A stretch of DNA of 64,000 nt from a candidate division WOR-3 bacterium (lineage in GTDB: Bacteria; Hydrothermota; Tepidihabitantia; Tepidihabitantales; Tepidihabitantaceae), in NCBI GenBank assembly GCA_013177935.1, contig JABLXZ010000002.1, positions 124,001 to 188,000 of the forward strand, in the 5' to 3' direction. Positions 25,635 to 46,959 of the stretch are shown piece after piece. The translations under genes and the position numbers were made by a program. A model generated the notes under the pieces. The model was given only the letters and a program-made list of their open reading frames with translations. It searched no databases and was not told the origin of the DNA. Every line of letters begins with the position of its first letter. Position 1 is the stretch's first letter.

Positions 25635-25663
25635 TTATAGATATAAACCTTAAAGGAGGACTG

Positions 25664-28384
25664 GTGAGTAAAACAATCGTCGCCAGCATTTTTTTAATGC
25701 TGAGCATCGTCCCAATCTCTGCCTTGCCCGCAGACCATTTTCGTAGTGGGCAAATTCACCGCTTTGCATCCGAACCCGGTGCGGAAATCAACTTCATCTC
25801 TTTTAGCAACGGCTATACCATTGACACCCGCTATGGTGAACCCAGCCTGCCGGTCGATTTGCGGCTTGAGCCGGCTGAAGCCCGCTACTACATCGTTCAA
25901 TTTACCGGACCGATTCAACGGTCCTGGTTTTCCCGATTAAACACCCTGGGCATCCAGACAATCGGTTATCTACCCTATTACGCCACCATCGCCCGTTTGA
26001 CACCCGCGCAACTGGAACAGGTCGCGCAACTGCCCTTTGTCCGCTGGACCGGCATCTTTCAGCCCGCCTACAAAATTCAGGCGGAACTCTTGAACAGCAC
26101 CGAACCCGAAGACATTGCCGTTCTCGTAACACCTGGCGAACCTTCCCAGCCCCTTGAAAATCTCATCACGCTGCAGGGTGGCATTGTTGTCCAGAAAACC
26201 GAAAGTCCGTTTGGCACCGTGATTCAGGCGCGGCTTCCGGGCTGGGCAATTCCGGTAATTGCCCGCGCACCCGAGGCGTTCTGGATTCAGGAGTGGACCG
26301 AACCAACAACCGCCAACAGCAATGGCCAATGGGTCACCCAATCGGGCTGGCGTGCTACCGCACCGCCCGACACCTCAACCGAAGCGCGGCCTGTGTGGCG
26401 CAATGGCGTGCGCGGTCAAGGGGTCATTCTTTCAACCACCGACACCGGCTTGAACCTCGGTCACGATATGTTCCGGGACCCAACGCTATCGGTAACCCCG
26501 CCTGGAATCTGGCCCGAACATCGCAAGGTGGTCGCCTACAAAAAGTACGGCACCGCCGATGCGAGTGAAGGACAGTACCACGGCTCCCATGTCAACGGCA
26601 CTGTTGCCGGTGACGACTCAATTACCGGTGGCACCAGTTACTACGATGGGATGTCAATCAAGGGTCGCCTCTACTTTGTTGACCTGACCAACGGCACCAG
26701 TTTTGTTCTTGGCACCGACCTCTGGGCCCTCTGGGATACGGTCTATTTTGGACGGGGTTTGCCCGATTCGCTCCGGCCCATCAAACAGCACTCTGGCTCC
26801 TGGGGCTGGTCCAACTCCTCAGGTACCTATCTTCTCCAGGACGCATCAACCGACGCCTTCATCTGGGCGCACAAAGACTTCTTGAACATTATGGCAGCGG
26901 GCAATGAGTACTCAAGCCGGAGAATTCGCAATCCGGGTATTGCGAAGAATGTTTTGACCGTGGGCGCGCTCCAGAACGGCACCGCATCTAACACCATCGC
27001 CTCATTTTCCAGCCGGGGTCCGACCCAGGACGGCAGGCTCAAACCGAGCATTATGGCACCGGGCGAAGGTATCTACTCCGCAACCCGCACCGGCACCAAC
27101 ACCTATCAGTCAATGGACGGCACCTCAATGGCAACGCCGATGACCAGTGGCGCCATTGGACTCATCCGCTGTTACCTCCAGGAAGGCTTTTACCCGACCG
27201 GCACGCCAACACCGGAAAACCGCATCTCCTACATCTCGGCAGCACTGCTCCGCTCAATGGCAATCGCCTCTGCCGACCCGAACATCGGTTCCTACACACC
27301 ACCGGACAACAACATCGGCTGGGGCAGAATTGATGTCGATTCGGTGCTCTACTTTGCGGGCGACACCCGGAAACTTCTGTTAAAAGACGACACGATTGGC
27401 ATCGCCACCGGCGAATATGCCGAAGAGCAGTTCCGGGTTGAATCCCAAATCCCGTTAAGGGTCGCCCTTGCCTGGTCTGACACCGCTGCTGCGCCCAGTG
27501 CCAACCCCACCCTTGTCAACAACCTTGACTTAGAACTGATTTCGCCCACCGGCACCTACTACCGCGGCAACAAGTACAGCGCGGGTCAATCCATCGCCAA
27601 CCCTACCGGCTGGGACTCAATCAACACCGAAGAGTGCTGTCGCATCAACGCACCGGACACCGGACTCTGGACAATTCGGGTTTATGGCCGCAATGTGGCA
27701 ACCGGTAGCCGTCAGCCTTTTGCCTGGACAATCACCGGCGCGCTCGCCCTGCCCACAACAACCCACGATGCCGGCGTAATGGCAATCATCACCCCGAGCG
27801 GTGACATCGACTCGGGCACGGTCATCACACCCCAGGCACTGGTTAAAAACTACGGCACGACCGAAGAAGAGATTACGGTGGTGTTCAACATCTCGTCACT
27901 CTACTCCGACTCCCAGACCGTTACGCTCGCCGCCGGTGCCGCCGAAACCCTTGACTTCGACCCCTGGACCGCAGAAGTAATCGGCACCCAGACCGCAACA
28001 TCGTTCACCATCCTGTCCGGCGATGAAAATCCGGCAAACGACACCGCCCGGTTTGAGTTTGAAGTGCTGCCCGGAACCGGCGTTGAAGAAGGCAGCGCAT
28101 CGCTCAATCGGGTATTCCTTGCTCCAGCCGAACCCAACCCCTTCCGCAACAGTGTCTCTCTCCGCTTCAACCTGCCTATATCCAGTTCGGTGAAACTCCA
28201 GATTTTCTCGGTGACCGGCGAACTTGTCGCCAGCCTCGTCAACACCGAAAAACCGGCTGGTACCCACACCGTCATCTGGAACGGAACCCTCGAAAACGGC
28301 AAAAGTGCTTACTACGGCGTGTTCTACTGCCGGCTCAGCGCAGGCAATACCGTGCTCACCCGCAAACTGGTTAAAACCCGATAA
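25664..28384 (+). CDS. Secreted subtilisin-like serine protease (S8) with C-terminal sorting domain
   Basis: The 906-aa preproprotein starts at GTG after AAAGGAGG. A signal peptide (1-22) and a propeptide of about 210 residues precede the S8 domain. The triad is visible: Asp260 (STTDTGLNLGHD), His309 (YHGSHVNGTVAG) and Ser488 (DGTSMATPMTSG). A jelly-roll domain (about 570-700), a CARDB-like domain and a FlgD-like sorting domain (from PNPFRNS near 820) follow. It is probably released or surface-anchored and degrades external protein. It shares an upstream element with an M28 peptidase gene. Confidence 0.9.
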   Translation: MSKTIVASIFLMLSIVPISALPADHFRSGQIHRFASEPGAEINFISFSNGYTIDTRYGEPSLPVDLRLEPAEARYYIVQFTGPIQRSWFSRLNTLGIQTIGYLPYYATIARLTPAQLEQVAQLPFVRWTGIFQPAYKIQAELLNSTEPEDIAVLVTPGEPSQPLENLITLQGGIVVQKTESPFGTVIQARLPGWAIPVIARAPEAFWIQEWTEPTTANSNGQWVTQSGWRATAPPDTSTEARPVWRNGVRGQGVILSTTDTGLNLGHDMFRDPTLSVTPPGIWPEHRKVVAYKKYGTADASEGQYHGSHVNGTVAGDDSITGGTSYYDGMSIKGRLYFVDLTNGTSFVLGTDLWALWDTVYFGRGLPDSLRPIKQHSGSWGWSNSSGTYLLQDASTDAFIWAHKDFLNIMAAGNEYSSRRIRNPGIAKNVLTVGALQNGTASNTIASFSSRGPTQDGRLKPSIMAPGEGIYSATRTGTNTYQSMDGTSMATPMTSGAIGLIRCYLQEGFYPTGTPTPENRISYISAALLRSMAIASADPNIGSYTPPDNNIGWGRIDVDSVLYFAGDTRKLLLKDDTIGIATGEYAEEQFRVESQIPLRVALAWSDTAAAPSANPTLVNNLDLELISPTGTYYRGNKYSAGQSIANPTGWDSINTEECCRINAPDTGLWTIRVYGRNVATGSRQPFAWTITGALALPTTTHDAGVMAIITPSGDIDSGTVITPQALVKNYGTTEEEITVVFNISSLYSDSQTVTLAAGAAETLDFDPWTAEVIGTQTATSFTILSGDENPANDTARFEFEVLPGTGVEEGSASLNRVFLAPAEPNPFRNSVSLRFNLPISSSVKLQIFSVTGELVASLVNTEKPAGTHTVIWNGTLENGKSAYYGVFYCRLSAGNTVLTRKLVKTR

Positions 28385-44990: not shown

Positions 44991-45018
44991 AGCATAAACA
45001 GATAAAACGGGTTGTCAA
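44991..45018 (-). promoter_or_regulatory. tldD-pmbA promoter
   Basis: On the minus strand TTGACA, a 16-nt spacer and TATGCT give a leader of about 15 nt that contains AAGAGGTAG. Confidence 0.6.
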
Positions 45019-45047
45019 CCAAAAAACTACCGCATCACATCAACCCT

Positions 45048-45193
45048 AAAAACACTACGGCGCGCCGTGGGCACTGGCACGCCGTAGAATTCGGTCCCCA
45101 TTGAGAGTGCTGGACTGGTGAGGCGAGGACCTTGAGCGCGACACCCTCTACCATGCCTCCTCTGGCTCGGTCCAATCTACCCACCCCCTCTTC
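45048..45193 (-). ncRNA. Candidate free-standing structured ncRNA 2
   Basis: The minus strand has TTGCTG (45227-45222), a 16-nt spacer and TATAAT (45205-45200). About 110-145 nt downstream an 11-bp hairpin is followed by TGTTTTT. The predicted RNA (about 146 nt) is G-rich at its 5' end. UAGAUUGG near its start can pair with CCGAAUUCUA just before the terminator, closing the molecule. Inside, GAGGGUGU can pair with GCACUCUC, crossing a GAGG/CCUC pairing. A pseudoknot is therefore possible. It lacks recognisable SRP, tmRNA or RNase P signatures. 6S-like RNA was considered but not demonstrated. Confidence 0.5.
45055..45087 (-). terminator. Intrinsic terminator of candidate ncRNA 2
   Basis: CTACGGCGCGC (45055-45065) pairs with GCACGCCGTAG (45077-45087), with one wobble, and on the minus strand is followed by T5 at 45052-45048. 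It could also stop read-through from the sigma-54-type activator gene. Confidence 0.8.
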
Positions 45194-45199
45194 TATCAC

Positions 45200-45227
45200 A
45201 TTATATAAGCAAAACTTGTGCCAGCAA
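45200..45227 (-). promoter_or_regulatory. Promoter of candidate ncRNA 2
   Basis: TTGCTG, 16-nt spacer and a perfect TATAAT on the minus strand. Between here and 45348 nothing else is recognised. Confidence 0.6.
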
Positions 45228-45348
45228 ACCTCAACTTTTATCGCTGTTAACAGTATGAAAAACAATAACTTACAAATTTAATACCAGCCTGCCTATATTT
45301 TTTCTGCCGTTTTTTTCTGCTGTTGTGTCGCTAAAATCGTCTGTGGTG

Positions 45349-46959
45349 CTAATCTATGTGGTACTGCGCCATCTTTTTGCGGAGTGTGTCGCGGTGTATG
45401 CCCAGGAGTCTTGCCGCCCTTGTCTGGTTGCCGTTTGTTGTCTGGAGCGCCTCTTTTATCGCCGCCTTTTCAATCTCGGCAAGTTTTAAACTTCCGACAA
45501 GTTTTTCAATCGACCCGCTGGCACTATGGGCTTCGGCGCTGGTTTTAATTTTTGGCGGTGAAACTGTTGCCACCGCAGCAGCGGTCTGTCCAATGCTCAC
45601 CGCATCCACATTTTCGTGCTGTGCCCGCTCATACGCCCGTTCCATCAGGGTGCGTAAGGCTCGAATGTTGCCGTTAAACAGATTGTTTTCGCCGTGAATA
45701 TACTGAATCACTAAACGGCTGAGAAACCTTATTGCCATCGGTTCGACCCTTAACTTTCGCCGATACCAGGGGTCACGGTTGCGCTCCTCAACAACGAACT
45801 CAAAAAACTCGGCAATATCATCTTCAACCGTTCCTGGTGCCTCTGCCTCCCACCGCTCTTTTAGTGAAGGCATCCAGATACACTCCTGGACCATACGGCT
45901 ATAGAAGTCGGGCCGGAACCGTTCCTGTAACTCCTCAAGTTGCCGGTTGGTTGCGGCAATAATCCGGACATCAACGGCTCGCTCAACTGAACTACCGACA
46001 CGCTTAATCTTCCGGTACTCAATAACACGCAAAAGTTTTAACTGCAACTCCTGGTCGATGTCCCCAATTTCATCAAGGAAAACGGTGGAACCGCGTGCCG
46101 TTTCAAAAACCCCGGCTCGGGCTGTTTTCGCATCGGTAAAAGCGCCCTTCTCGTGACCGAAAAGTTCGCTGACAACTAGATTGCGGTCTAAGGCGGTCAT
46201 ATTGAGCGCCACCGGCTCCTTTCGAATTTCTACATCTTCAGCAAAGCGAAAACTCTTGCGATGCAATGCCCGCGCCACCAGCTCCTTGCCTGTTCCCGGT
46301 TCACCCAGAATCAAGACATTGCCATCGGTGGCAGCAAGACGCTCAATCTCGTGTGCCAGCCAAGCCATCCGCCGGGACTGGCCCACAACCATCTTGTGCG
46401 TTTCGCGCCAGACCCGCCGCTCATTTTCATTCAGGGGCCGGAGCGCATAGGTGTTAATCCCGTAAAGAACCTCATCTGCCTGGCCTGTAATGCGCGGGTC
46501 ACCGGTGGCAAAGGCAAAGGTTGCGGTCCGGGTGGCGCAGAGAAATCCGGCAAAATCCCGCACCGTTTCGAACTGTTCAGCATCGAGGTTAAAAAGTACC
46601 GGTGCAACCGCATCAATATGTTCCTGCCGGATGTGTTGAAAGATTATCAGCCCCTGAATCTTCCGGATGTCCGCCAGCACACCAGGTGGACGGGCGCTGA
46701 TTGAAAATGACACCAGTTTTTCGCTGTTTTCTGGTTTAATGCCGGAAAAGTCGACACCAATAACAATCAAAGCAACATACGCGCCCCGATTGCGGCTGTA
46801 CCAGGATTTCAACCCTGAAAAACTGTCACAGTAACCAAAATCAAACTCTCTCAAAAGCCTGCCGTTTTCGTACCTTTGCGCCGCAGTAATTAGCGCCTGA
46901 TACTTCTCCTCCTGGTCATAACAAACTAAAATGACCGGCTTTCTTCGGGCAGAACTCAT
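45349..46959 (-). CDS. Sigma-54-type AAA+ transcriptional activator with degenerate receiver
   Basis: The 536-aa protein has an N-terminal region (1-140) resembling a response-regulator receiver but without a clear phosphoacceptor Asp pocket. The central AAA+ domain has Walker A GEPGTGKE (219-226), the loop GAFTDA (272-277) and Walker B VFLDE (293-297). A C-terminal Fis-type helix-turn-helix ([19 protein letters not shown]) follows. The sigma-54 contact motif is normally GAFTGA; here the fifth position is Asp. It may still act on sigma-54 or work independently of it. The mRNA appears leaderless. Confidence 0.85.

Follow-up and report, generated by a model that had tools for sequence, protein, structure and literature searches.

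Circuits in which the gene of a sigma-54 activator adjoins that of a small RNA (sRNA) are already known. In Vibrio, the sigma-54 activator of the luxO-qrr circuit drives pairing sRNAs, which depend on Hfq and are present in several copies. In Pseudomonas the gene order is cbrB-crcZ; CrcZ, which carries repeated A-rich motifs, acts like CsrB by binding protein, and Hfq and CsrA are the proteins usually decoyed by such RNAs. The Pxr RNA of Myxococcus holds back development. Accounts of pxr, in their passages on the locus, place the sRNA gene downstream of a sigma-54 response regulator, with a sigma-54 promoter and a gap of 262 nt, and describe stem-loops, no hfq and a synteny that is kept while other neighbours change (PMC5568312, PMC5684412, PMC10217877). 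The neighbouring gene pxrA is described as a proposed target of Pxr (PMC11928866). In enterobacteria the sigma-54-dependent sRNA gene glmY is described as adjoining its activator operon qseEGF (glrKR) in conserved synteny (PMC6075780), and GlmY as a decoy for the protein RapZ (PMC7073468). CbrB, a sigma-54 activator of Pseudomonas, is described as driving CrcZ with hardly any dependence on phosphorylation (PMC6296734).

The minus-strand stretch 45048-45197 of the window (the whole 64,000-nucleotide stretch of DNA analysed here, from a candidate division WOR-3 bacterium) is, on comparison of sequences, almost certainly a real non-coding RNA gene of an uncultured phylum, and its sRNA family appears to be new. 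By layout the nearest known circuit would be pxrR (nla19)-pxr of Myxococcus xanthus and its relatives. The WOR-3 RNA likewise lies directly downstream of a sigma-54 activator (15/17 genomes), has a sigma-54 box (14/14, by sequence) after a gap of similar size, contains stem-loops and keeps its synteny while other neighbours change, and no Hfq was found in the five genomes searched; the likeness is one of layout. Unlike the WOR-3 RNA, Pxr is 108 nt long, with three stem-loops; it also has a kinase gene, pxrK. WOR-3 is also a different phylum, and the receiver motifs of its activator look degenerate. As with glmY-qseEGF, an sRNA with a putative sigma-54 promoter stands beside an activator gene in conserved synteny, but glmY lies upstream of its activator operon. 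As with cbrB-crcZ, a sigma-54 activator would drive an sRNA, but CrcZ titrates the Crc/Hfq repression system, and repeated A-rich motifs of its type were not seen in the WOR-3 RNA. The qrr sRNAs also differ from it in sequence.

Distribution and structure of the RNA

The initial annotation had proposed a structured, free-standing ncRNA adjoining a sigma-54-type activator. This was right, and nearness to the activator proved to be the key fact. The region of about 146 nt on the minus strand, with a strong hairpin and then T5, is present as described, and the unit looks free-standing, with tldD having its own sigma-70-like pair (TTGACA-16 nt-TATGCT, about 44991-45018). Homologs and a covariance model delimit an sRNA of about 150 nt (45048..45197; it and all its parts are on the minus strand), with a predicted 5′ end near 45197, 12 nt past the −12 position of its sigma-54 box. 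The alignments reveal a near-invariant 5′ motif, GACCGAGC (45165..45172), whose GAGC is able to pair with GCUC (helix 1), and a GCGCUC motif (45134..45139). Helix 2 joins GGUCCUC (45125..45131) to GGGGACC (45093..45099); in the structure test on the alignment 100% of its pairs were kept, two of them with two-sided changes. An exposed loop segment, CUCACCAGUCC (45112..45122), is the proposed seed and has a perfect complement at 25658-25668. The terminator hairpin (45055..45087), with two-sided changes in seven of 11 pairs, is followed by T5 at 45048-45052.

Among 61 genomes searched with the DNA sequence, two further members of the window's genus and four genomes from genus g3 gave clear matches. 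The first covariance model, built from those seven sequences and run on 150 genomes, found the RNA in 15 of the 18 genomes of its GTDB family (WOR-3; NCBI Caldifarciminota), and the second (11 sequences), run on 147 genomes of the phylum, found it in the same 15. Applied to individual loci, the second model added G012 (E 3.9e-7, cut by a contig end) and G014 (E 7.3e-7, divergent), bringing the total from both models to 17/18 family genomes. G017 is not among the 17; it has a sigma-54-like box downstream of the activator, but its contig breaks off shortly after that box. Elsewhere in the phylum (147 genomes) there was no convincing copy; the one weak match that either model gave outside the family, in G048 (E 0.003), is terminator-like, with no sigma-54 box and no activator match in 12 kb, and was rejected. 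Also left out of the counts were a match on G009:C298 (E 5.7e-5), with no activator match in its 3.1-kb locus, a Burkholderiales pattern match (L067) with no box or terminator by eye, and opposite-strand model matches in G004, G009, G011, G013, G015 and G016, which overlap the terminators of true copies. On two contigs of G015, C489 (L095) and C404 (L083), an activator end stands before a sigma-54 box and the beginning of the sRNA; the two ends differ in upstream sequence, reflecting either two copies or a mixed bin.

Absence from close relatives and repeat DNA had been named at the outset as grounds for doubt. Relatives carry the RNA, by both DNA search and covariance model, and the stretch occurs once in its own 1.96-Mb genome, G000, in which the window occupies C2:124001-188000. 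The RNA looks like an addition within one family, because four activator orthologs outside the family with readable downstream DNA have neither box nor RNA there. Activator orthologs (E ≤ 1e-60) were present in 5/10 genomes of the order's other families and in 0/33 from the class outside the order. Being older or more widely spread than the RNA, the activator may have other targets.

Folding of the single sequence gave a weak signal (z −1.84, with 6/200 shuffles equally good; in a second run z −1.40 and 16/200), and z-scores over 14 homologs ranged from −0.85 to −4.78. The sRNA goes beyond chance because its homologs show compensatory changes in one hairpin and the terminator. The structure test used an alignment, not fitted to any structure, of 11 of the 17 copies; G005, G007, G011 and G014 (divergent) and G008 and G012 (truncated) stayed out. 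In this alignment GAGC/GCUC, GUCCCC/GGGGAC and the terminator together had 99.1% paired cells. For helices 1 and 2 with the terminator, two-sided changes occurred in nine pairs against 3.6 in shuffles, and the covariation score was 0.343 against 0.178. None of 500 shuffles reached the paired cells, the two-sided changes or the covariation score, and slid versions fell to 33-52%. Helix 1 is invariant apart from one broken cell and therefore has no covariation, so that it is neither proved nor refuted. Among the copies left out, G008 keeps helix 2 with other bases and G014 forms a like hairpin, while G005, G007 and G011 seem to be folded otherwise in this part.

The complementary ends of the initial annotation, GAGGGUGU and GCACUCUC, are present as letters, but their pairing is not conserved, with 50.0% of cells paired against 49.1% in shuffles. 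The pseudoknot it suggested reached 75.9% against 70.7% in shuffles, 13/500 of which were as high, and had no excess of two-sided changes; its pairing holds in the window's own genus and fades outside. The CUA of CCGAAUUCUA is part of the terminator stem. Across all genera GACCGAGC is kept, and so is CGCUC, except in G014; CUCACCAGU in the loop is common to g1 (the window genus) and g3, with one base different in G016. In g1, g2, g3 and g5 the terminator loop (45055-45087) has CCCACGG or a close variant while the stem changes, a conservation that exceeds the needs of a plain terminator.

Promoter and neighbouring activator

A sigma-54 −24/−12 box, TGGCACAAGTTTTGC, lies at 45209..45223 on the minus strand, and its counterpart was found in all 14 homologous 100-nt upstream regions tested, against a mean of 0.33 and at most 3 in 300 shuffle rounds; the pattern was fixed after the sequences were seen, but is the textbook element. 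G012 and G014, outside this 14-copy test, have the box too, and in every readable copy the element stands 31-91 nt before the GACCGAGC motif. The window genome contains rpoN, the sigma-54 gene. We consider it very likely that the sRNA promoter is of the sigma-54 type. The letters of the sigma-70 pair proposed initially (TTGCTG-16-TATAAT) do stand on the minus strand, but as the promoter of the sRNA the pair was a misreading; it overlaps the conserved sigma-54 box. The best −35/−10 pair of the window genome was matched by 20/60 shuffles, and in most relatives the best pair did not rise above shuffles, G005 (1/60) being the exception.

Perfect boxes (TGGCAYN5TTGCW) number 10 in the window genome, against 2 for the reversed control. 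Three of the ten, with surroundings read by eye, lie downstream of an activator gene and ahead of non-coding DNA or the start of a gene: the sRNA's own and two others, which precede a 340-codon and a 19-codon ORF. Outside the window, L192 (G000:C2:521400-527400) encodes a 1757-aa protein that combines Ser/Thr kinase, AAA, TPR, GAF and sigma-54 activator domains. After it come a sigma-54 box (G000:C2:526908), a Shine-Dalgarno, a proline-rich ORF of 19 codons (MDAPIVPILPPPRPAPPVK) and a terminator. We read this box and ORF as a sigma-54-driven mini-peptide gene.

The activator gene (45349..46959, minus strand) encodes an N-terminal domain, PF00158 and a Fis-type HTH, as assigned by domain search and orthologs. 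An ortholog lies directly upstream of the RNA, on the same strand, in 15 of the 17 RNA-bearing genomes (12 of 14 family loci taken by position, the window genome, G012 and G014). The DNA upstream of the RNA in G008 consists of unknown bases, and in G002 the activator is on another contig (L088, G002:C59, versus L072, G002:C73), with no RNA downstream of it. The RNA of G002 retains both its sigma-54 box and its position ahead of tldD. The downstream gene varies: g1 and g5 have tldD, g3 a different gene. The 125-bp gap between activator stop and box (45224..45348, minus strand) is the presumed activator binding region; across homologs the gap measures about 114-239 nt. TGCNGCA occurs within 75 nt of the activator stop in 7/14 homologs, five of them g3 (shuffle mean 0.62); it is absent from the gap of the window genome, where no enhancer site could be fixed. 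From this arrangement the RNA is probably under the control of the neighbouring activator.

The N-terminal domain of the activator matched nothing in Pfam, and no PDB match improved on E 0.47. Its motifs, VVDD and QDVD in g3 and f3 and VCYD, IGVD and LGVD in the window genus, look receiver-like in the former, where g3 retains acidic residues of that kind, and degenerate in the latter. An AlphaFold model of the activator had a mean pLDDT of 38.5, too low for testing this reading, and was not used. The sigma-54 contact loop is GAFTDA in g1, GAFTDA or GAYTDA in g5 and GAFTGA in the other aligned sequences. Judged by eye, the ORFs near the activator do not resemble kinases.

Other readings of the RNA

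In its size, and in the complementary ends first pointed out, the RNA recalls 6S RNA, and the initial annotation had thought a 6S-like architecture conceivable. That idea did not survive. The Rfam search of the sRNA stretch matched no family, 6S included, and RF00013 had no match in the window genome at E ≤ 10, against controls that responded in 8/14, four over the cut-off; when twelve homolog loci, the locus of the G014 activator and one further locus were scanned, the single match was below the threshold and lay away from the RNA. In place of a conserved rod-like stem closing the ends there are two local helices and a terminator, the promoter appears to be of the sigma-54 type, and a better 6S-like candidate (RNA-B) was found in relatives, so that a 6S homolog binding RNA polymerase has next to no probability. 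A sigma-54-dependent mRNA for a small protein is scarcely more credible. An open frame (45035-45265) does run through the stretch in the window genome, where another activator is also followed by a box and a 19-codon ORF, but the ATG after AGGAGG is already missing in G001, and in the homologs the frame is interrupted by 1-nt indels between genera and by stops scattered over the frames. The stretch has no conserved reading frame, against the early concern that a protein-coding match might emerge, and the two-sided changes are those of RNA helices. The position of the terminator between the sigma-54 promoter and tldD, which follows in g1 and g5, would suit a leader or attenuator of tldD in which the terminator decides read-through. 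We rejected this highly unlikely reading because the downstream gene differs among genera while the RNA stays; tldD also has its own promoter-like pair.

RNA-B is a second conserved ncRNA candidate, of 6S-like architecture, on the minus strand in G004 (L074, from ~11520 downward), G013 (L082, ~11580), G015 (L134, ~1511) and G008 (L078, ~2600-2660). It has a TTTACA-17/18-TATAAT-like promoter, a long rod-like fold closed by pairing ends, a near-invariant GAGCAUCUCAACCUCC block and a T-run, and the two copies scanned had no Rfam match. In G004, G013 and G008 some 3-5 kb separate it from the sigma-54 RNA. The RNA-B 5′ end is complementary to the exposed block of the sigma-54 RNA in G004 and G015, over 11 bp in both; there is one mismatch in G013, and no complementarity was seen in G008. 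As there is no covariation in this pairing, we do not claim it. An Hfq-free hub in which one exposed block masks a protease start in g1 and opens the closing stem of RNA-B in g3 seems very improbable; if true, it would be a case of a regulatory RNA controlling a 6S-like RNA.

Candidate mode of action and target

The reading we favour, with some reserve, is that the activator gene and the small regulatory RNA directly downstream of it make up a two-gene module, in which the RNA depends on sigma-54 and pairs in trans without Hfq. On arrival of a signal the activator would bind the 125-bp gap, make contact with sigma-54 polymerase and switch on the ~150-nt RNA. The RNA would then pair in trans at ribosome-binding sites through the exposed pyrimidine-rich loop of helix 2, without Hfq, and the best candidate target, the start region of a secreted subtilase, would be shut off. 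Hfq was over the cut-off in 0/5 genomes (controls responding in 6/14, five over the cut-off), as was CsrA (control over the cut-off in 3/14).

A sigma-54-induced decoy RNA that binds a protein and not mRNAs, with GACCGAGC and GCGCUC as its binding site, would be in keeping with the pattern of conservation: these motifs (the second as CGCUC, except in G014) are the ones kept in all genera, the loop is kept between g1 and g3 only, and GACC has no conserved partner. Yet neither Hfq nor CsrA, the proteins that such RNAs usually bind, exceeded the cut-off in any of the five genomes, and the loop, which two genera share, matches a start codon. We regard a decoy as unlikely, and action by base-pairing as fairly likely.

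The secreted S8 subtilase gene lies on the plus strand at 25664-28384, and the candidate target site, GGACTGGTGAG (25658..25668, plus strand), spans the end of its Shine-Dalgarno and its GTG start and forms 11 perfect pairs with the sRNA segment. When the helix-2 region was scored as a duplex against the starts of 41 long window ORFs, the subtilase ranked fourth by energy; 0/30 shuffles gave as strong a duplex with its start, which was also true of one other start. Outside the RNA, 11-mers of the segment have three sites in the window, with about 0.7 expected, and one of these is at a start, with about 0.005 expected (41 starts, 20 positions each; both expectations are our own arithmetic). The ortholog of the nearest relative, G001, keeps the GGACTGGTGAG 11-mer within about 40 identical bases, the DNA further upstream having diverged. 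The complementarity of seed and subtilase is found in G000 and G001 only. The seed is not common to g2, g4, g5, g6 and g7, and g5 has neither the seed in its RNA nor the site at its subtilase start. The target pattern RYTGGTGRGG, searched in 8 genomes, showed no excess over its reversed control among the matches listed, and none of its 38 sites in the window genome is a good start-codon site; the pattern ends in GG and therefore could not have found the subtilase site. The subtilase may be a target of the sRNA, a proposal we make tentatively from this complementarity.

In the literature searched, no paper was found joining WOR-3 with sRNA or small RNA, or candidate division WOR-3 with noncoding RNA, and broader terms gave none on a WOR-3 sigma-54 RNA among the matches listed. 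With this locus a candidate phylum gains an sRNA for which the promoter type and the likely regulator can be named and a candidate target can be tested. Together with pxrR-pxr and glmY-qseEGF, and with cbrB-crcZ and luxO-qrr1, the WOR-3 case suggests that the arrangement of a sigma-54 activator with an adjacent sRNA has originated repeatedly, and here, as in Myxococcus, the circuit would work without Hfq.
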